Origin: Candidatus Zixiibacteriota bacterium
GTDB lineage: Bacteria > Zixibacteria > MSB-5A5 > GN15 > JAAZOE01
Direction of reading: 5' to 3'
DNA length: 64,000 bases
Assembly: GCA_030668485.1 (NCBI GenBank)
Contig: DAOUTW010000008.1
Location: 30,957-94,956, forward strand
Part shown: piece by piece, positions 12,438 to 24,546 of the stretch
Numbering within the stretch: position 1 is the first letter of the stretch
Layout: every line of letters starts with the position of its first letter
Notes under the pieces: model-generated
What the model was told of the DNA's origin: nothing
The model's database searches: none
Seen by the model: only the letters and a program-made list of their open reading frames with translations
Translations under genes and position numbers: made by a program

Positions 12438-13502
12438 CTATATTACAGGGGAAATGACTTCATTTTTATGACGGCAAAAGTAACTCTCATAAAGAGATTT
12501 CGTTGTAAAGAAGTTTGAAGCGCGGCAGCCGCCACGACAGGTATCGCCGACATCGCAACCACTGCATTTACCGGATAATAATTCCACATTGAATTTGCGA
12601 TTATAACTGAAATTCTCGGAATCGTGCCAGATATCGGCCAGGGATTTTTCGCGAACATTTCCTTCTATGAATGCTTCGTCATACATGGCGCCGCATCCTT
12701 TGATATTGCCCACGCTGTCAATAAATAGCGAACTGACGCCGGCCTGACAACCCTGCCAGTAACAAATGGGGGCGCTTCGTCCCCGAATATACATTTCATT
12801 ATCATCGAAATACCCGATGCTATCCGCTGCAATGACCAACATCGTTTTCTCCATGTTCTTCTCTCTTACGAATTCGGTAATTTGCGGTATCTTTTTGGGA
12901 TTGATAATAAGTTCCCGCTTATCGGCCAAATTTCCCATCGGGTTGGCCAACTGCAGTTGCCAGAGCTGGACATTGTTATCGACAAAGAGTTCGTACATAT
13001 CCTCCAGATCCGGGTAATTGAACTCCATTAAGCATGTCACGACTCCAATCCGAATATCAGCCTGATTCAACAGATTAAAAGTATTCATAATTTGAGAGAA
13101 GGCATCTTCTTTGCCTCTTATTTTAGTGTGATTTTCCTTCATACCGTCAACCGAAATTCCCACGTTGGATAATTGTGCATATTCTATCTGACCAATCTGT
13201 TTCTCACCGATCCTGTAGCCATTGGACATGGTATTTACCGCTACACCCTGGTCCGCCAATCGCCGGGATACTTTTTCCCAGCCTTTATACAAAAATATTT
13301 CACCCCCGATAAAGGTCAGTTCCTTACCGCCCAGTTCAACGAATTCGTCGGCGACGCGATAACATTCGTCCAGGGTTAATTCCAAATGCCTCGCGCTTCC
13401 GGCCACGGAACCGCAGTGCATGCAATTCATGTTGCACCTTAATGTCAGTTCCCACAGCCCTGAAAATAATTCATATTCAGATTGATAAGAGTCTTTACCC
13501 AT
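12438..13502 (-). CDS. Radical SAM protein with SPASM domain (putative peptide or protein maturase)
   Basis: The N-terminal motif CNMNCMHC gives the Cx3Cx2C triad C23/C27/C30 that holds the SAM-cleaving 4Fe-4S cluster. It is followed by a GGE motif in TFIGGEIFLY and a partial TIM barrel. The last 110 residues carry a SPASM set of cysteines (CYWQGCQAG, IKGCGAMYD, CSGCDVGDTCRGGC) for two auxiliary clusters. At 354 residues this is the usual size for RiPP or enzyme maturases. It lies 74 nt downstream of a 106-residue ORF with a strong ribosome site on the same strand, with a perfect 13-bp hairpin between them. That ORF may be its substrate or accessory protein. No transporter or protease is adjacent. 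Function inferred from family only. Confidence 0.88.
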   Translation of the reverse strand: MGKDSYQSEYELFSGLWELTLRCNMNCMHCGSVAGSARHLELTLDECYRVADEFVELGGKELTFIGGEIFLYKGWEKVSRRLADQGVAVNTMSNGYRIGEKQIGQIEYAQLSNVGISVDGMKENHTKIRGKEDAFSQIMNTFNLLNQADIRIGVVTCLMEFNYPDLEDMYELFVDNNVQLWQLQLANPMGNLADKRELIINPKKIPQITEFVREKNMEKTMLVIAADSIGYFDDNEMYIRGRSAPICYWQGCQAGVSSLFIDSVGNIKGCGAMYDEAFIEGNVREKSLADIWHDSENFSYNRKFNVELLSGKCSGCDVGDTCRGGCRASNFFTTKSLYESYFCRHKNEVISPVI

Positions 13503-16468: not shown

Positions 16469-16531
16469 TGATTTGATGCCTCCCCAAACTTATCAGTAAA
16501 TGGCGCGAATCATTAAAGAAATCTATCCATC

Positions 16532-16563
16532 AACCATACTGCCAGCCGCGGTCACGGCCGAGG
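16532..16563 (-). repeat. Copy of the 3' end of the PEPCK-like gene
   Basis: These 32 nt match 16626-16657, the last codons of the PEPCK-like gene, with about three mismatches; read on the minus strand they still encode LGRDRGWQYG-stop. The 60 nt between the copies contain a repeat-family hairpin. Confidence 0.75.
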
Positions 16564-16564
16564 C

Positions 16565-16623
16565 TTGTTGTTGAACACCGAACCCAGGTCATCCGCGCGA
16601 CAGCCGAAGACAGGCTTTGCCTG
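16565..16623 (-). repeat. CGCGACAGCC-family repeat
   Basis: ATCCGCGCGACAGCC is followed by hairpin ACAGGC-TTT-GCCTGT. Other members are at 26164-26215, 54361-54385 and 62612-62672 (two in tandem), each with CRCGAYAGC followed by a short, differing hairpin. Confidence 0.65.
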
Positions 16624-18483
16624 TTAACCATACCGCCAGCCGCGGTCGCGGCCGAGTCGTTCGTTCGGCTTCCAGTCAACCAGTTTCTTGACCGGTTTGC
16701 CGGTATCCTTCGGTGGCGGGATGTCGTCTTTTTTCTTCGATGAAATAAATACTTTGGGCGCTTTTTCCTGAGCGATACTATATGACTCTTCCGCGGCGCG
16801 GATAATTTCCGGCATCAACCACTCTTCGGCCACAGCTTCAGTAAACTTGCGACGGCCGCTGACGATGTCGCGGACATAATTGTCAATCTGATCCTGCGAA
16901 TAATACGCCTCGGGACGATATGCGGTCAGGTCCACACCCTCGGCGGAAACTATCGTTTCGGTGCCGAGGAAACTGTCCTGATACTTATTGGTGCCGCGCA
17001 GGTCGCCGCGCTGGATGGCGGCCATGGTGTCGATCGGAACCCGCTCGGTTTTGCGAATCATATTCTTGTTGCCGGCATCGTCCTTCTCGATAATCTCGCC
17101 CATCCCGCCGGTATTGTATTGATAGAAATGAACCTTATCGGGAAAACTACTGGCCAGATCCATGATGATGCGGTAAAACTGGTTGATCTTATGCGCCCGC
17201 GATCCGACAATAAACGGATCGGTGCCGACCGTCCGGACCGATTCGCCCGCCTTGGCCGGGTTTGATGCATAACTATGGCTCGATTCACCCCAAAGATATG
17301 CCAGCGCCGCTTGAATCGGCGTCAACCGCTGCGCGAAAGTCATAATCGTATTACGGCGAGTGATGAACGCGAAGACAATCCCGTCGAGTTCATCGACCGG
17401 CGGCAGATTGAGGGTATGATACCAGATATCTTTCATGGCAAAGGGCCAGTGGCCGCGGTCGATTTTCAACTGCTTACGCGCGATCACGCCGCGACCATTG
17501 CCGCACAGATTTTCATCAAGGAAATCGGGGTTGCCGTCGGCGTTGATCATGACATTTTCATAGAGCGCGCTTTTATGCACCAGCGAGTTGTACATCGATT
17601 CCTGCAGTTTGGCATCGACATCGGTTTTGACAAAGTAATTGAATTCCGAGCCGTAGGCGGTTCCGTCGTTTTTCAAAAAGCAGATATCATCCTGACAGAC
17701 CAGAGTCCGTTCGCCCTTTTTCCAGTCGAGACCGAGCTGATGGCATGACCAGGTGCTTTTGCCGGTGGCTGACAGCCCGAACAGCAAAACGCCGTAGCGT
17801 TTCAGCTTGTTGGTCTTGGCATCGCGGATGACAACCACCTTTGTTCCGGCATGCAATCCCAGCATCCCGAGCGAATCGGCATAATGCATACCGTTGCGCA
17901 GGAAACCCTTCTTGTCCTCGCCCATATAGTCGGAGCCGAGAACGAGGGTAGTATTATGATCGGGCAACATCAACGCCTGCTGGCGGATTTGATGTTCTTC
18001 CGGTATATGAATCAGAGTGAATTCGGGCCCGGGAGCATTCGTAACCGGCCCCATGGTATTACCCCACATGTAGGCCAGCCGATAATTTTTCAGATCGGCG
18101 ACCGACATATAGAGGTTACATTTCGGGTTATACTCGCCGTTCTGCCCCATCTGGCGGCGCAGCTTGACGAACGGCAGAGTTTCCATCAGGTGCAAAACCT
18201 TGTCCAACTCTTCCGGGGCCTTCTTGATAATATTTTTCTTTCCATCGGGCAGATGAAACTCGCGGACTTTTTCGCTTCCCAAATAACAGGTCTTGCCGCC
18301 GATACGGCTGGAGACCGCCGAACGCCATCCCCATGAACCGAACTTGGTCTGCGTTCCGGTCCTGATGGCCGGTTCGCGCAGATCTTCGAGGGTCACTTCC
18401 TTGATATTGGGGCCGTTGAGCCGCCGTTGCAGGTCCCGGCTAAACCGGGCGTACAACTCTAAATCATATATCGAATCAGACAT
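16624..18483 (-). CDS. Divergent phosphoenolpyruvate carboxykinase (ATP-type fold)
   Basis: The 619-residue protein has the PEPCK nucleotide site: P-loop FGLSATGKST at about residues 235-244, kinase-2a CQDDICF at 263-269, and the downstream NYFVKTD, ALYENVMI and RLTPIQAALAYLWG blocks that match GCYAKT, ALLENVV and LTPEQAMYYFLSG of ATP-dependent PEPCK. The sequence is otherwise far from the E. coli type, and N-terminal residues that bind oxaloacetate cannot be confirmed by eye. It would convert oxaloacetate plus nucleotide triphosphate to PEP and CO2. It is the last gene of a minus-strand operon: 3 nt after ndk, itself 9 nt after an aminotransferase fused to a related domain. The last 32 nt are duplicated downstream. 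Confidence 0.78.
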   Translation of the reverse strand: MSDSIYDLELYARFSRDLQRRLNGPNIKEVTLEDLREPAIRTGTQTKFGSWGWRSAVSSRIGGKTCYLGSEKVREFHLPDGKKNIIKKAPEELDKVLHLMETLPFVKLRRQMGQNGEYNPKCNLYMSVADLKNYRLAYMWGNTMGPVTNAPGPEFTLIHIPEEHQIRQQALMLPDHNTTLVLGSDYMGEDKKGFLRNGMHYADSLGMLGLHAGTKVVVIRDAKTNKLKRYGVLLFGLSATGKSTWSCHQLGLDWKKGERTLVCQDDICFLKNDGTAYGSEFNYFVKTDVDAKLQESMYNSLVHKSALYENVMINADGNPDFLDENLCGNGRGVIARKQLKIDRGHWPFAMKDIWYHTLNLPPVDELDGIVFAFITRRNTIMTFAQRLTPIQAALAYLWGESSHSYASNPAKAGESVRTVGTDPFIVGSRAHKINQFYRIIMDLASSFPDKVHFYQYNTGGMGEIIEKDDAGNKNMIRKTERVPIDTMAAIQRGDLRGTNKYQDSFLGTETIVSAEGVDLTAYRPEAYYSQDQIDNYVRDIVSGRRKFTEAVAEEWLMPEIIRAAEESYSIAQEKAPKVFISSKKKDDIPPPKDTGKPVKKLVDWKPNERLGRDRGWRYG

Positions 18484-18486
18484 TTC

Positions 18487-18912
18487 TTACTGTCCCTTGG
18501 GCAGGATTTCATCTTCACGGAAAAAGAAAGCCACTTCGGCTTTGGCCGTATCGGGGCCATCCGATCCGTGCACTACGTTTTTTTCCACCGAGGTGCCATA
18601 TTCACGCCTGATGGTATTGTATTTCGCTTTGGCCGGGTCGGTGGCGCCCATAAGTTCGCGCCATCTTTCGATGGAGCTATGACCGCCGAGGACCATGACG
18701 ACAACCGGGCCGGAGGTCATAAACTCAACCAGCGATTTATAAAACGGCCGGCTCTCATGAACGGCGTAAAACCTCTGCGCATCGTCCTTGCTGAGCTTGA
18801 CAACTTTCATTCCGCGCAGTATCAGGCCTGACTTTTCAATTTTGGCGATAATGTTTCCGGCCAGTTTGCGACTGACAGCGTCCGGTTTGATTATGCCCAG
18901 TGTATTGGCCAC
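18487..18912 (-). CDS. ndk: Nucleoside diphosphate kinase
   Basis: The 141-residue protein has the Ndk start (TLGIIKPDAV), the FYAVHESRPFYKSLVEFM block and the active-site histidine in NVVHGSDGPDTA. Size and residues are typical of the housekeeping enzyme that equilibrates nucleoside triphosphates. Its place between an aminotransferase-PEPCK-like fusion and a PEPCK, with gaps of 9 and 3 nt, suggests it supplies or recycles the nucleotide used by those enzymes; that link is inference from gene order. Confidence 0.95.
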   Translation of the reverse strand: MANTLGIIKPDAVSRKLAGNIIAKIEKSGLILRGMKVVKLSKDDAQRFYAVHESRPFYKSLVEFMTSGPVVVMVLGGHSSIERWRELMGATDPAKAKYNTIRREYGTSVEKNVVHGSDGPDTAKAEVAFFFREDEILPKGQ

Positions 18913-18921
18913 GACGGCCTC

Positions 18922-21267
18922 CTATCCTATCAATTCCCGGATACGCGCCTTGAGCGCCTCCGGCGGCATTGCCGCAATGTTGACTTTGTACGCAGCGGCC
19001 ACCCGGAACAACTGATGGAAATTGCGCCGTTGCAAATCTTCCTGGTCCACCGATGACGCCAGCATATACGGATTGAAAAACGGCTGCGTCATAAACGGCG
19101 ACATCCCGCCGTCTTCCGGCACCCGATAATTTCCGGCCGTGATATATTCCAGCGCGTCTTCCGGCGAAAGCTTCTCGACTGCCGGTCCGTTCGGGTCGCA
19201 ACTCAGCATTACCACCGCTTTCAGGCGAGTCCGCTTGACATACCGCTGCGGCCCATTGATCCAGGCAGGATCGATCATCGCCCGCGAATCTTTCGATCCC
19301 CAATAGCAATACGGATCGCCGAGATCGAGCGGGCACTCGTTTTGGAGCGCCTTCATGTTGGTCCAGTCGGCGCGGGTAGTGACGACATTTTCACATTTAC
19401 TGCGGTCGAATATCCGCGCATAACGGGGGAATTTCTCCGCGACCGATGTCTTGAAATAAAATTTCCGTTCGGGAGCGTCGGCAATCGCCTCGTCGCCTCG
19501 ATATCGGACAAACATCCAGTCGTTGGTCACGAATCGGGAATTGTCTTCTTCCAGAAGGCGGCTAAAGGTCGTTCCGCGCTTCATTCCCTTCGGTCCGATC
19601 AGAGCTATACCGCGCCCGTTGAAATCGAGACAGGCGGCGCGGATACCATGCACATCAAGCAGTCTTTCGCTGGCATGGGCCACCATCGCCAGAGCCCAGC
19701 TTCGCACCTGACCGTAATAGGTGGTGTTGAACATGACCGCCGTCTTCATATCCTGATTGTAATAGGCATACGGCTTGCGTCCGGCAACACCGTCGACGGC
19801 GTAGATGATTCCATGCGGTTCGAGGTCGGATTCGAGTTGAGCCGGATACCAGTTCTCGACCCAGAAATCATACAGATGCGGTACATTGGTCCTGAGTTGA
19901 ATGATAATGCCGTTGATATTGGCATTCCATTCGAAATACCGATCATACGGCAGGGCCGCTTCGGCCTCTTGCACAAGAGCATCGCGCTCTTCGATGGCAA
20001 TTGCCGTTTCGGCTTCGGTATTCTTCCGCGGATTGGTCATGACATTCTGCAAAGCCACCCGTTTGTATTTCGGCGATTCTTTCAGTCGAGCCATAGCCTC
20101 GATTACCCGGTCGGTGCCTTCTTCGATTTTTTCCATCGAGGTCGAATACGAAAAGCGAATATTGTCTTCGGCTCCGAACGCGCTTCCCGGAACCAGAGCC
20201 ACCGCCGCCTCGCGGAGAAGATAATATGACAGGCCGTAGGAGTTACGGATTTTCATACCGCCGTATTCCGTGTTATAATAAGCCGACACATTCGGGAACA
20301 GGTAGAAGGCTCCTTGCGGTTCAAAGCATGACACATTCGGGATCCGGCGTAATTTGTTGATCATGTAATTGCGGCGGGTCTGGAATTCGGCCACCATCTG
20401 GCTGATTTCGCTTTGATTTCCCGACAATGCCTCCGCTGCCGCTTTCTGCGCTATCGAATTGGCGTTGGAAGTCGAATGCGACTGGATGATACTCATCGCC
20501 GAGATAATTTCCCGCGGTCCCATCGCAAAGCCGATACGCCATCCGGTCATGGAATAGGCTTTTGAGACGCCATTGACGACCACAGATTTATCTTTGATTT
20601 TGTCACCCAGGGCGCCTACCGAGGTGAACTTATAGCCGTCATATGTCACTTTGTCATAGATTTCATCAGCGATAACGACCAGCCCTTCAGCGACAGCGAT
20701 CTCGCATATTTCCTGCAATTGTTCCCTGGTATATGCTCCGCCGGTCGGATTGCTGGGGTTGTTGAGGATCAACGCTTTGGTATTGAAATTGAGATTGGCT
20801 TTGAGTTCGTCCGGGGTAAGGAGAAAACCGTTCTCCTCGCGAGTCGGGACGATTACCGGCTTACCTTCGGCCATCAATACCATCTGAGGATATGACACCC
20901 AGTACGGTGCCGGAATGATCACTTCCTCGTCGCGGCTGACAATCGCCATGAGCAGGTTATAGAGGCATTGTTTCCCGCCGGTGCCGACAATGATTTGATT
21001 CTTCTGATATTCGATTCCCTGATCTTCGCGGAATCGAGTGCGAATCGCCTCTTTCAGTTCCGGGATGCCGTCGTTGGCGGTGTACCCGGTAAAATTGTTA
21101 TCGATGGCCTTTTTTCCCGCGTCCTTGATATTGGTCGGGGTGTTGAAATCAGGCTCCCCGACGGAAAAATCAATGACGTCAATCCCCTCGGCTTTCATCG
21201 CCCTGGCCTTGGCGCTGATGCGCAGGGTCGGGGAAAGTTCGAGACGGCCGATCCTGTTGGATATCAT
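18922..21267 (-). CDS. Aspartate aminotransferase fused to a PEPCK/HprK-like P-loop domain
   Basis: Residues 1 to about 395 are a complete class I aspartate/aromatic aminotransferase: FSVGEPDFNTP, NNPSNPTGG, the PLP lysine K236 in VSKAYSMTGWRIG and the carboxylate-binding Arg371 in RFSYSTS. Residues 420-781 are a second domain with HIRAACLDFNGRG-like and GPKGMKRGTT sequence where HprK/PEPCK proteins have their P-loop, TNDWMFVR at kinase-2, and a C-terminal LSPEDALEYITAGNY block like PEPCK. The P-loop lacks the canonical GKS/T order, so it may be catalytically dead or altered. There is no stop codon between the domains. The gene is followed by ndk and a PEPCK-like gene; a complex turning aspartate into PEP via oxaloacetate is the obvious hypothesis. 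Confidence 0.85.
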   Translation of the reverse strand: MISNRIGRLELSPTLRISAKARAMKAEGIDVIDFSVGEPDFNTPTNIKDAGKKAIDNNFTGYTANDGIPELKEAIRTRFREDQGIEYQKNQIIVGTGGKQCLYNLLMAIVSRDEEVIIPAPYWVSYPQMVLMAEGKPVIVPTREENGFLLTPDELKANLNFNTKALILNNPSNPTGGAYTREQLQEICEIAVAEGLVVIADEIYDKVTYDGYKFTSVGALGDKIKDKSVVVNGVSKAYSMTGWRIGFAMGPREIISAMSIIQSHSTSNANSIAQKAAAEALSGNQSEISQMVAEFQTRRNYMINKLRRIPNVSCFEPQGAFYLFPNVSAYYNTEYGGMKIRNSYGLSYYLLREAAVALVPGSAFGAEDNIRFSYSTSMEKIEEGTDRVIEAMARLKESPKYKRVALQNVMTNPRKNTEAETAIAIEERDALVQEAEAALPYDRYFEWNANINGIIIQLRTNVPHLYDFWVENWYPAQLESDLEPHGIIYAVDGVAGRKPYAYYNQDMKTAVMFNTTYYGQVRSWALAMVAHASERLLDVHGIRAACLDFNGRGIALIGPKGMKRGTTFSRLLEEDNSRFVTNDWMFVRYRGDEAIADAPERKFYFKTSVAEKFPRYARIFDRSKCENVVTTRADWTNMKALQNECPLDLGDPYCYWGSKDSRAMIDPAWINGPQRYVKRTRLKAVVMLSCDPNGPAVEKLSPEDALEYITAGNYRVPEDGGMSPFMTQPFFNPYMLASSVDQEDLQRRNFHQLFRVAAAYKVNIAAMPPEALKARIRELIG

Positions 21268-21270
21268 CGT

Positions 21271-22665
21271 TTATCCCTCGTCCGGATCGCCTGGCGACAG
21301 TTTTCCCGGATCATTTTTCGTTTTGGCCATTTTCTTGATCCACTCTTCCAGGTCAAATCCTGACAGCGATTTGACGACCGTCGGCAGTTGCGTCATCATC
21401 GAGGCCATTTCGCCGGTGATTTTCGAAGTCCCCATCGTGCCGTCGTTGGAGACCATGACGATCTTATCGATCTTGGAAAGCGGCGCGGCCATTTCGCGGG
21501 CCAGTTCCGGCATTTTGTCGAACATCATCTGCAACAGAGCCGGCTCAGAATAGGAGTTCCACGACTCGGCTTTCTTACGCATGGCGTCAGCTTCGGCCTG
21601 GCCAACCTTTTCAATCAGTTCCGCTTCGACAATACCCTGGACCCGTTTGGCTTCGGCCATACCTTTGGCTTCGGCTTCAAGGCGATACTGTTCTGCCGCA
21701 GCCGGCTTACGCACCGTCGCTTCCAGTTCCTGCTCGACACGCTCGATTTCTTTTTTCTCCAGCTCGATAACCGATTCTTTTTCGATCAGTTTGACTTTGC
21801 CTTCTTCGGTTTTCAATTCCTGGTTGAGTTTGTGACGTTCCAACTCATAGGCGAAATCGGCGTCGGCTTTCTTGCTGTTGAGAGATTTCTGCAGTTCAGC
21901 CTTTTTCAGTTCGAAATCCTGATTCGCTTTGGCGACTTCGGTTTCGGCGACTATCTTGGCGATATCTCCCTCTTTCTTCGCCCCAGCCGACTTGATGATG
22001 GCATCCCTCGCCGCTTCGGCTTCAGCCACTTCGGCATCACGCCGGGCCTCAACAATACGCGGTTTTCCCAGAGCCTCAAGATATCCCGATGGATCGGTGA
22101 TCTCTTTGAGATTGAAGGAAAGCAGCTTCAGCCCCATATTGGCGAAGTACTGCTCCACCTCCCCGAACACCTTCGAGGTGAAATCTTTGCGGTTCTTATT
22201 GAGTGATTCAAGATTTAAGGTACCGATCAAAGCTCTCGATGAACCTTCCAGCGTACGCAGGGCGACATCGCGAATGTCGGTCACCGGTTTACCCAGGAAC
22301 TGTTCCGCTGCCAGATGAATCGAGGCTTCATCGCCGGAGATTTTTACTTCCGCCGTCCCGAGGATGTTGCAACGGATACCGTTGGTCGAAATGGCGTTTT
22401 CGACCTGAATATTCATCGGGATAATTTCCAGGGGCAAAATCTGCGCCTGCTCGATAAAAGGCCGTACAAAGGTACCACCGCCGATACGGAATCGATATCC
22501 CACCTGTCTTGATGATCCGTCCGGCAGGGTCACACTACGTTTCCTCCCACCGGAAATAATCAGCACTTCGTTGGGGCCGACTTTCCGGTAGTTCTTCAGA
22601 AACATCACCACAATCGCCGCCAAAACGACGATGGCCACGATAACAATAATCAAAAGGGAACTCAC
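21271..22665 (-). CDS. Flotillin-family (SPFH domain) membrane scaffold protein
   Basis: One N-terminal membrane segment (LIIVIVAIVVLAAIVVM) is followed by the SPFH/band-7 domain (VGPNEVLIISGG, then ILPLEIIPMNIQVENAIST). A long Ala/Glu/Lys-rich coiled coil with flotillin-type repeats (VAEAEAARDA, EYRLEAEAKGMAEAKRVQG-like segments) comes next. The track start lies upstream of a good ribosome site; GTG 22665 follows AAGGAG by 8 nt and gives a 464-residue protein of normal length. It organises membrane microdomains in other bacteria. It is the first gene of the operon with the aminotransferase fusion (3 nt gap), which may tether those enzymes to the membrane; that is inference. Confidence 0.9.
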   Translation of the reverse strand: MSSLLIIVIVAIVVLAAIVVMFLKNYRKVGPNEVLIISGGRKRSVTLPDGSSRQVGYRFRIGGGTFVRPFIEQAQILPLEIIPMNIQVENAISTNGIRCNILGTAEVKISGDEASIHLAAEQFLGKPVTDIRDVALRTLEGSSRALIGTLNLESLNKNRKDFTSKVFGEVEQYFANMGLKLLSFNLKEITDPSGYLEALGKPRIVEARRDAEVAEAEAARDAIIKSAGAKKEGDIAKIVAETEVAKANQDFELKKAELQKSLNSKKADADFAYELERHKLNQELKTEEGKVKLIEKESVIELEKKEIERVEQELEATVRKPAAAEQYRLEAEAKGMAEAKRVQGIVEAELIEKVGQAEADAMRKKAESWNSYSEPALLQMMFDKMPELAREMAAPLSKIDKIVMVSNDGTMGTSKITGEMASMMTQLPTVVKSLSGFDLEEWIKKMAKTKNDPGKLSPGDPDEG

Positions 22666-22738
22666 CTTATGCTCTCCTTGCGAAGAATGAAAAGGCGGCG
22701 CCACAGGCCGCCGCTTTATTTTCGTTTTTTAGGTGAGC

Positions 22739-22767
22739 AAGATAAATTTTTCACAAGCGGATGTCAA
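22739..22767 (-). promoter_or_regulatory. Sigma70-type promoter of the flotillin-PEPCK operon
   Basis: On the minus strand: TTGACA, a 17-nt spacer and TATCTT. The leader of about 70 nt contains a GGCGGC/GCCGCC hairpin just ahead of the ribosome site. Confidence 0.65.
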
Positions 22768-23022: not shown

Positions 23023-24546
23023 ATGGCTATTATTATAGAAGGTTCGGGACTGACAATTGAGAAAATAGTCAGGATCGCGAGAAACAACGAGCCGGTCGAA
23101 TTGCATCCAGATGCAATCGAGCGGATAAAAAAATGCCGGGCGATGCTGGAGAAGAAAATCGAAGCCCATGAAATTATGTACGGCGTCAACACCGGCATCG
23201 GCGAATTTTCGGAAGTCGTCCTTGATGACGATCAGGTCAAGGATTTTCAAAAGTATCTGGTTTATAACCACAGCGCCGGTATTGGCGATCCGATGCCGAT
23301 TGAATATGTTCGCGGCGCGATGGCGGGCCGTATCAATGTCCATGCGCACGGCAACTCCGGCGTCAGGCTTGAAATTACTCAAACTCTGGTCGAGATGCTA
23401 AATAAGGGCGTCACCCCTTTTGCCTGCCAAAAAGGTTCGGTCGGGGCATGCGGTGATCTGGCGCCCATGTCGCAGATCGCACTATTGATGATGGGCGAAG
23501 GCGAAGCCTTTTATAAAGGTGAATGGCTGGAGGGCAAGGAAGCGATGGACCGCGCCGGGATACCGATCCCGGGTCTTCAGGCTCGCGACGGGCTGGCGGT
23601 GATCAATGGCTCCAATGTCCTGACGGCCATGAGCGCCATCTTTTTATATGATGCCAACAATTGGTTCAAGCAGGCGGAAATCGCCGCCGCCATGTCGCTG
23701 GAGGCGCTCAAGGCGAATATGAAGCCATATACTGCCAAACTTCATGAAGTGCGCGGATTCAAGGGTGCTGTTCGCAGTGCCGAGGCGATACGCAAGCTGG
23801 TCGCTGGTGGCGATCTGGCGGAAGACCGGGTCAAATGCAAAGTTCAGGATGCCTATTCCATGCGCTCCACACCGCAGGTTATCGGCGCGGCGCATGACGC
23901 TCTCGCCTATGCCCGGTCGCAGGTCGAGATCGAACTCAACGGCGTCGGCGACAACCCGATCTTCTTCCCCGATGAAAATCTGCAAATATCGGGCGCCAAT
24001 TTTCAGGGCACGCCGGTGGCATTGCCGATGGATATGATGAGTGCGGCCGTCACGATGGTCAGCGTTATGTCAGAACGTCGCATGAACCGGCTCAACAATC
24101 CGGCTCTCAGTGTCGGCCTGCCGCCGTTTTTGACCAAAGGCGCGGGAATGTTCTCAGGGATGATGCTGTCGCAATACACCGCTGATACGCAGATTGTCGA
24201 ACAGCGCATGCTTTCAGCCCCGGCCTCGGTTCAATCGATTCCAGCCGCTGCCGATCAGGAAGATTTCGTCTCGATGGGGATGAACACGGCCATCAAAAAC
24301 TTTCAGATAATGGATAACGCCTATGGCGTGCTCGGAATCGAATTCATGGCCGCTGCGCAGGCTCTTGATTTCCGTGATTACAAATTCGGCGACGGTGTCA
24401 CCAAAGGCAAAGAGGTGATTCGCAAATATGTGGATTTTCTCGACATCGACCGCCCGCTTTATCCGGATCATACCCGAATGAAAGAGTTGGTGAAATCCTG
24501 CGAGATCTTGGACGAGGTCGAGAAGGTTGTTGGGAGTTTGGAATAA
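23023..24546 (+). CDS. hutH: Histidine ammonia-lyase (aromatic amino acid lyase family)
   Basis: The 507-residue protein has the conserved Tyr53 in YGVNTGIG and the MIO-forming region GSVGACGDLAPMS at 139-150. It also has the typical NGSNVLTAMSA, VQDAYSMRSTPQV and QQ-type downstream blocks. The MIO triad reads Ala142-Cys143-Gly144 where most lyases have Ala-Ser-Gly; Cys at this position is known to support MIO formation in mutated histidase and occurs in some natural homologues. The expected reaction is deamination of histidine to urocanate; other aromatic substrates cannot be excluded. The start has AGAGGT upstream. A formiminotransferase-cyclodeaminase gene lies at 47 kb, but hutU and hutI are not in the window. 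Confidence 0.9.
   Translation: MAIIIEGSGLTIEKIVRIARNNEPVELHPDAIERIKKCRAMLEKKIEAHEIMYGVNTGIGEFSEVVLDDDQVKDFQKYLVYNHSAGIGDPMPIEYVRGAMAGRINVHAHGNSGVRLEITQTLVEMLNKGVTPFACQKGSVGACGDLAPMSQIALLMMGEGEAFYKGEWLEGKEAMDRAGIPIPGLQARDGLAVINGSNVLTAMSAIFLYDANNWFKQAEIAAAMSLEALKANMKPYTAKLHEVRGFKGAVRSAEAIRKLVAGGDLAEDRVKCKVQDAYSMRSTPQVIGAAHDALAYARSQVEIELNGVGDNPIFFPDENLQISGANFQGTPVALPMDMMSAAVTMVSVMSERRMNRLNNPALSVGLPPFLTKGAGMFSGMMLSQYTADTQIVEQRMLSAPASVQSIPAAADQEDFVSMGMNTAIKNFQIMDNAYGVLGIEFMAAAQALDFRDYKFGDGVTKGKEVIRKYVDFLDIDRPLYPDHTRMKELVKSCEILDEVEKVVGSLE

Follow-up and report, generated by a model that had tools for sequence, protein, structure and literature searches.

A flotillin operon with a fused aspartate aminotransferase–PEPCK-like protein, a candidate scaffolded alternative to the canonical AspAT–PEPCK pair

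Phosphoenolpyruvate carboxykinases (PEPCKs) work in either direction, which differs among bacteria and is not readable from sequence. The closest described relatives of the system reported here are the ATP-dependent PEPCK (PckA, PF01293), the canonical Zixibacterial pair of aspartate aminotransferase (AspAT) and PEPCK, and the bacterial flotillin FloT. Two articles (PMC5718613, PMC4409396) describe flotillins of bacteria as scaffolding complexes at the membrane. The clients of flotillins, like genuine metabolons in bacteria, are difficult to establish, and in the present locus the partnership is fixed by the genome. The locus lies in a 64,000-nucleotide stretch (the window) of contig DAOUTW010000008.1 of a Candidatus Zixiibacteriota bacterium. 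It is an operon of a flotillin, an AspAT fused to a PEPCK-like domain, a nucleoside diphosphate kinase (Ndk) and a divergent PEPCK. The openly licensed literature yielded no report of the fusion, of such a PEPCK pseudoenzyme or of a link between flotillin and PEPCK. With a probability of about 0.65, the operon is proposed to be an alternative membrane-scaffolded AspAT–PEPCK module for aspartate, oxaloacetate and phosphoenolpyruvate (PEP), in which a dead PEPCK domain would act as an adaptor or sensor. The genes and the two parts of the fusion are as follows.

21271..22665, minus strand: FloT-like flotillin, 464 amino acids (aa), GTG start (Band_7 72.7 bits, Flot 43.6 bits)
20080..21267, minus strand: AspAT domain of the fusion, residues 1-396 (Aminotran_1_2 251 bits)
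18922..20010, minus strand: putative pseudo-PEPCK domain of the fusion, residues 420-781 (AlphaFold2 and Foldseek; Lys and His replaced by Arg)
18487..18912, minus strand: Ndk, 141 aa, second copy (NDK 177 bits)
16624..18483, minus strand: divergent PEPCK-like protein, 619 aa, motifs intact (PEPCK_ATP 82.9 bits)

The reading frames, their order and strand, and the gaps of 3, 9 and 3 nucleotides between them were as given in the preliminary description of this DNA, and the open frame that it had traced from the aminotransferase into the C-terminal domain was confirmed. Many other genomes contain complete copies of the fusion, each in an uninterrupted frame of about 780 aa. Hence, a frame or assembly artefact was rejected as the source of the fusion.

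The strongest sign that the operon would do the job of the AspAT–PEPCK pair is an exchange of genomic slots. The typical slot in Zixibacteria without the operon reads prfB–pta–AspAT–PEPCK–small zinc-ribbon-like protein–glcD–gltA and holds a canonical ATP-PEPCK and a different AspAT; prfB and gltA are visible only where the fetched stretch extends to them, and the AspAT is 3' of the PEPCK in the slot of genomes G015 and G024. At L138, L141, L143 and similar loci in the central-carbon cluster of Zixibacteria, the AspAT and PEPCK genes overlap. The canonical pair has both predicted activities and the slot in common with the operon. It differs in consisting of separate ordinary enzymes, without flotillin, fusion or Ndk, and its AspAT is 33-41% identical to that of the operon. 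The operon adjoins prfB–pta and/or glcD–gltA in nine contigs from three families (L019-L025, L031 and L043). Both flanks are visible in L020, L021, L022, L024 and L031, with pta undetected in L024; the remaining slot contigs break off inside the operon or close to it, and one flank is seen in them. Of 45 genomes lacking the operon, 32 carried the canonical pair, and of 15 operon genomes none did (Fisher 7e-7); the pairs of G035 and G059 were placed by coordinates alone, and that of G037 lies at a contig edge. Family by family, the pair was present in 0/3 genomes with the operon versus 3/4 without it in f1, in 0/5 versus 9/10 in f3 and in 0/7 versus 20/27 in f4. If these three families are true clades, the recurrent exclusion means that the exchange in place happened more than once. 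Judged from this genomic pattern, the operon probably does the job of the canonical pair in a scaffolded form.

The conservation of the unit was evaluated in related genomes. The flotillin gene lay directly 5' of the fusion in 48 of 49 testable loci, and the two occurred together in Zixibacteria, Calditrichota, Bacteroidota/Ignavibacteria and Aminicenantota. A PEPCK-like gene lay directly 3' of the fusion in 29 of 44 loci, and Ndk was within the fetched cluster in 17 loci, all of them Zixibacterial except L032. Since Ndk is nearly confined to Zixibacteria and many Aminicenantota lack the PEPCK-like gene, the invariant core is the flotillin with the AspAT–pseudo-PEPCK fusion. The PEPCK-like gene is a frequent third member and Ndk a lineage-specific addition. 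The fusion and its gene order are kept across several little-studied phyla. That unrelated housekeeping genes came to be neighbours by chance has a probability close to nil: nothing was found in favour of this idea, and it is ruled out by the flotillin–fusion adjacency and by a gene order kept over several phyla at 45-55% protein identity. Moreover, among 133 genomes from the phylum of the window, 42 have the fused domain. The PEPCK-like protein was present in 37 of these 42 and in none of the 91 genomes without the domain (Fisher 8e-28). Several times the PEPCK-like gene lay on another contig than the fusion or at a distant site.

The 619-aa protein has the fold and the catalytic motifs of PckA. 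It passed the PF01293 cut-off (26.5 bits), and it keeps the YxGExKK, catalytic His, Asp pair and NxR motifs as well as the intact P-loop expected for the last gene (FGLSATGKST). R60 of its SSR motif is invariant.

17752..17778, minus strand: intact P-loop GLSATGKST, residues 236-244 (A239-T244 invariant in 16 homologues)

Unlike PckA, the protein is very divergent, has no recognisable R65 region and carries an extra C-terminal tail. This tail of Arg and aromatic residues follows a variable linker, is absent from canonical PEPCK and reads RDRGWRYG in Zixibacteria and RRPGSWRWR in Calditrichota and Ignavibacteria; it is a candidate docking peptide. Just past the stop codon, at 16530-16570, the last codons are repeated: LGRDRGWRYG-stop is followed by LGRDRGWQYG-stop, which looks like a duplication of the tail.

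The divergence raises an improbable alternative, in which the PEPCK-like protein, like its relatives, would be a kinase acting on some other substrate and the operon would belong to a different pathway that begins with an AspAT product. The PF01293 score is far below the >700 bits of canonical PEPCKs, every NCBIfam PEPCK cut-off was missed (277 against 369 for the best, NF006821; 23 against 590 for pckA), and the N-terminal part could not be aligned to canonical PEPCK. Against this alternative stand the slot common with the canonical pair, the mutual exclusion with that pair, and the PEPCK inventory of the genomes. No GTP-PEPCK was found in operon genomes within the 60-genome sample, and both the canonical ATP-PEPCK and the GTP-PEPCK are missing from G041 (97% complete) and G044 (96% complete). 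Outside Zixibacteria, no further PEPCK was found in any of the six genomes tested that encode the PEPCK-like protein, which come from Aminicenantota, Calditrichota and Bacteroidota/Ignavibacteria. A GTP-PEPCK, and no ATP-PEPCK, was present in 12 of 13 genomes, mostly Aminicenantota, that have the flotillin and the fusion without the PEPCK-like protein. The Fisher value for the PEPCK-like protein against another PEPCK outside Zixibacteria was 2.6e-4 pooled and 0.03 within the Aminicenantota-type set. The occurrence of the PEPCK-like protein where other PEPCKs are missing supports its predicted PEPCK activity and makes it a candidate for the PEPCK of those Aminicenantota, Calditrichota and Bacteroidota/Ignavibacteria in which the enzyme otherwise seems to be missing.

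The C-terminal domain of the fusion (362 residues) matched no Pfam family. Structure prediction of residues 420-781 placed it inside the PEPCK fold. The AlphaFold2 model, built from a 42-sequence alignment, had a predicted local distance difference test score of 90 and a predicted TM-score (pTM) of 0.88. The best 50 Foldseek matches listed were all PEPCKs, with ATP-dependent enzymes first (E 1e-16, TM about 0.75 on the query). In profile–profile comparisons, the fused domain matched the operon's own PEPCK-like protein with E 7e-9, and its standalone relatives matched canonical PEPCK with E 1e-7. Residues 420-781 are thus predicted to have the fold of ATP-PEPCK and not that of HprK, which corrects the 'HprK/PEPCK-like' label of the preliminary description. 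HPr kinase and HprK-related kinases have the P-loop superfamily in common with the domain, and their matches were weak and limited to the P-loop region (HprK_rel_B, E 0.15). In contrast to HPr kinase, the domain has PEPCKs as the best 50 fold matches listed and a PEPCK-type NTG motif near its C-terminus; an HprK identity was rejected.

Unlike PckA, the fused domain is short and, judging by its motifs, catalytically dead. The altered sites are as follows.

19702..19704, minus strand: Arg522, at the Lys of the YxGxxK motif, aligned with E. coli K212 (alignment to PEPCK)
19639..19641, minus strand: Arg543, at the catalytic His, aligned with E. coli H232 (alignment)
19567..19596, minus strand: degenerate P-loop GPKGMKRGTT, residues 558-567 (APTGTGKST in standalone relatives)

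The match of the motif Lys with K212 came from an ungapped alignment. The residue roles are those of E. coli PEPCK, in which K212 adjoins the metal ligand K213. R65, Y207, K212, K213, K254 and D269 appear as mutants in PDB titles among the fold matches. With Arg, Arg, ND and GPKGMKRGTT at the positions of the Lys, the His, the Asp pair and the P-loop, the domain of the window does not have the motifs of a working PEPCK; the replacement of GxxGxGK[ST] had been seen correctly at the outset. The search through 84,980 species genomes of bacteria and archaea turned up 74 relatives. They form two sets, one fused to AspAT, with both parts visible at 55 loci, and one standalone, of about 360-440 aa. 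Motifs were scored in the copies long enough for it, 50 fused and 18 standalone. All 50 fused copies have Arg at both the Lys and His positions, the first Asp of the pair is lost in 47, and an intact GxGK[ST] is missing in 45, most of which read GxxGTxKT. All 18 standalone copies keep the YxGxxK Lys, the His, the Asp pair, the Arg and the GxGK[ST] P-loop. From these motifs, the fused domain is predicted to be a catalytically dead paralogue. L041 and L078 keep GTGKS and the Asp pair and nevertheless have Arg at both sites; this pattern points to a loss of Lys and His that preceded the decay of the P-loop. Furthermore, a single branch of the tree separates fused from standalone copies (Shimodaira–Hasegawa-like approximate likelihood ratio support 100), and therefore a single origin of the fusion suffices.

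The standalone relatives come from metagenome-assembled genomes of groundwater Deltaproteobacteria, Nitrospirota, Acetothermia and Planctomycetota. Two more standalone copies, with intact motifs and 574-578 aa, occur in the Zixibacteria G067 and G068. Seven tested genomes with a standalone domain have no clear ATP- or GTP-PEPCK, which raises the idea that the standalone protein might be a minimal PEPCK. No neighbour genes common to the standalone-domain groups were found. In the metagenome-assembled genomes of Deltaproteobacteria, the domain has purine genes, SppA and a gene resembling a mannosyltransferase beside it; the neighbours were a TPR protein and a branched-chain transporter in Nitrospirota, and an ABC transporter in two Zixibacteria. 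Relatives with intact motifs, unnamed in Pfam and belonging to an uncharacterised family, include L066:7947-9017, L067, L073, L082, L084 and L105:5423-7144.

The proposed module would work as follows. AspAT would exchange aspartate and oxaloacetate, the divergent PEPCK would exchange oxaloacetate and PEP with a nucleotide, and the extra Ndk may balance nucleotides and so tie the one used to the general pool. The dead domain distinguishes the operon AspAT from ordinary AspATs and is therefore likely an adaptor or a sensor of a ligand such as PEP, oxaloacetate or nucleotide. It may link the AspAT both to a platform of flotillin and to whichever PEPCK the genome provides. Enzyme activity, location at the membrane, assembly into a complex and flux direction are inferred for the operon products. 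The aspartate-to-PEP complex suggested at first is in keeping with a conserved unit having one intact and one degenerate PEPCK-like protein, and the slot common with the canonical pair points to a role between aspartate, oxaloacetate and PEP. A further idea, tentative at this level of evidence, is that the dead paralogue forms a docking hub for AspAT, PEPCK and Ndk on the flotillin platform, that is, a genetically fixed, membrane-scaffolded central-carbon metabolon. If that were so, the standalone relatives of about 360 aa would be an unrecognised minimal PEPCK family and the source of the dead domain.

The dead domain could also be an allosteric sensor of PEP, oxaloacetate or nucleotide that acts on AspAT alone, with the other genes being merely co-regulated neighbours. 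The flotillin and fusion without a PEPCK-like gene in many Aminicenantota, and the partial P-loop GxxGTxKT kept in most non-Zixibacterial fused copies, are in line with such a regulated transaminase; a nucleotide-regulated transaminase had been the second reading of the preliminary description. We regard it as unlikely, because the perfect nesting of the PEPCK-like protein within the fusion-bearing genomes of the phylum and the near-constant adjacency of flotillin suggest more than co-regulation, and the P-loop is more eroded in the clade of the window. The scaffolded AspAT–PEPCK module thus remains the preferred reading. It comprises one flotillin and one AspAT–pseudo-PEPCK fusion, often with a matching PEPCK, and is swapped for a plain AspAT–PEPCK pair in relatives. 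Its three or four genes make flotillin function, pseudoenzyme regulation and control of the oxaloacetate–PEP node testable.

Several observations weigh against the scaffolded module. The genomes compared are related, and the Fisher values hence overstate independence. The operon of the window itself lies outside the pta–glcD slot, beside a histidine ammonia-lyase gene. A canonical ATP-PEPCK is encoded elsewhere, not beside an AspAT of this type, in 11 of the 15 operon genomes, and the operon is therefore not simply the household PEPCK there. In the window genome, a canonical PEPCK at G000:C109 led to the rejection of the operon PEPCK as the sole one. The equivalent of E. coli R65 was not located in the 619-aa protein with its unalignable N-terminal part, and the substrate is thus not assured. 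Furthermore, the packing of the domains in the full-length fusion model was not confident (pTM 0.53).

The flotillin has the SPFH (Band_7) and Flot domains of a bacterial flotillin, each over its Pfam cut-off, and it has these domains and an N-terminal hydrophobic segment in common with FloT. Unlike FloT, it scored under the NCBIfam FloT cut-off (344.8 against 700 bits) and is fixed in an operon with a metabolic enzyme. Residues 1-396 of the fusion are a class I AspAT of the Ib type, with the family profile, the pyridoxal phosphate-binding lysine motif SKAYSMTGWRIG, a GGKQ motif and AspATs as closest structures (best PDB match 1j32, E 3e-106); the domain was under the NCBIfam AspAT equivalog cut-offs (440 against 617). 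It is an extra copy, the other AspATs of operon genomes being 34-41% identical to it. The operon Ndk is ordinary by profile. The other Ndk of the window genome, at G000:C40, is 47% identical to it, and a separate Ndk about half identical to the operon one was found in most operon genomes.

The region 5' of the operon contains the promoter-like sequence named in the preliminary description.

22739..22767, minus strand: promoter-like TTGACA-17-TATCTT (consensus match only)

The sequence is present at 22767-22739 on the minus strand. The consensus scan found 14 sites of this kind in 6.7 kb, where 5.5 were expected, and the match is therefore weak evidence for a promoter. The flotillin starts with GTG at 22665, with AAGGAG a few bases 5' of the start. 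Between the promoter-like site and this start, a G+C-rich hairpin followed by a T run lies at 22692-22717 in the sense of the operon and is a possible leader terminator or attenuator. The adjoining histidine ammonia-lyase-like gene is divergent (23023-24546). Elsewhere in the window, the open reading frame 12438-13502 resembles by eye a radical SAM/SPASM protein, with CNMNCMHC near the N-terminus and a C-terminal Cys cluster, and a 106-aa open reading frame lies 5' of it on the same strand.

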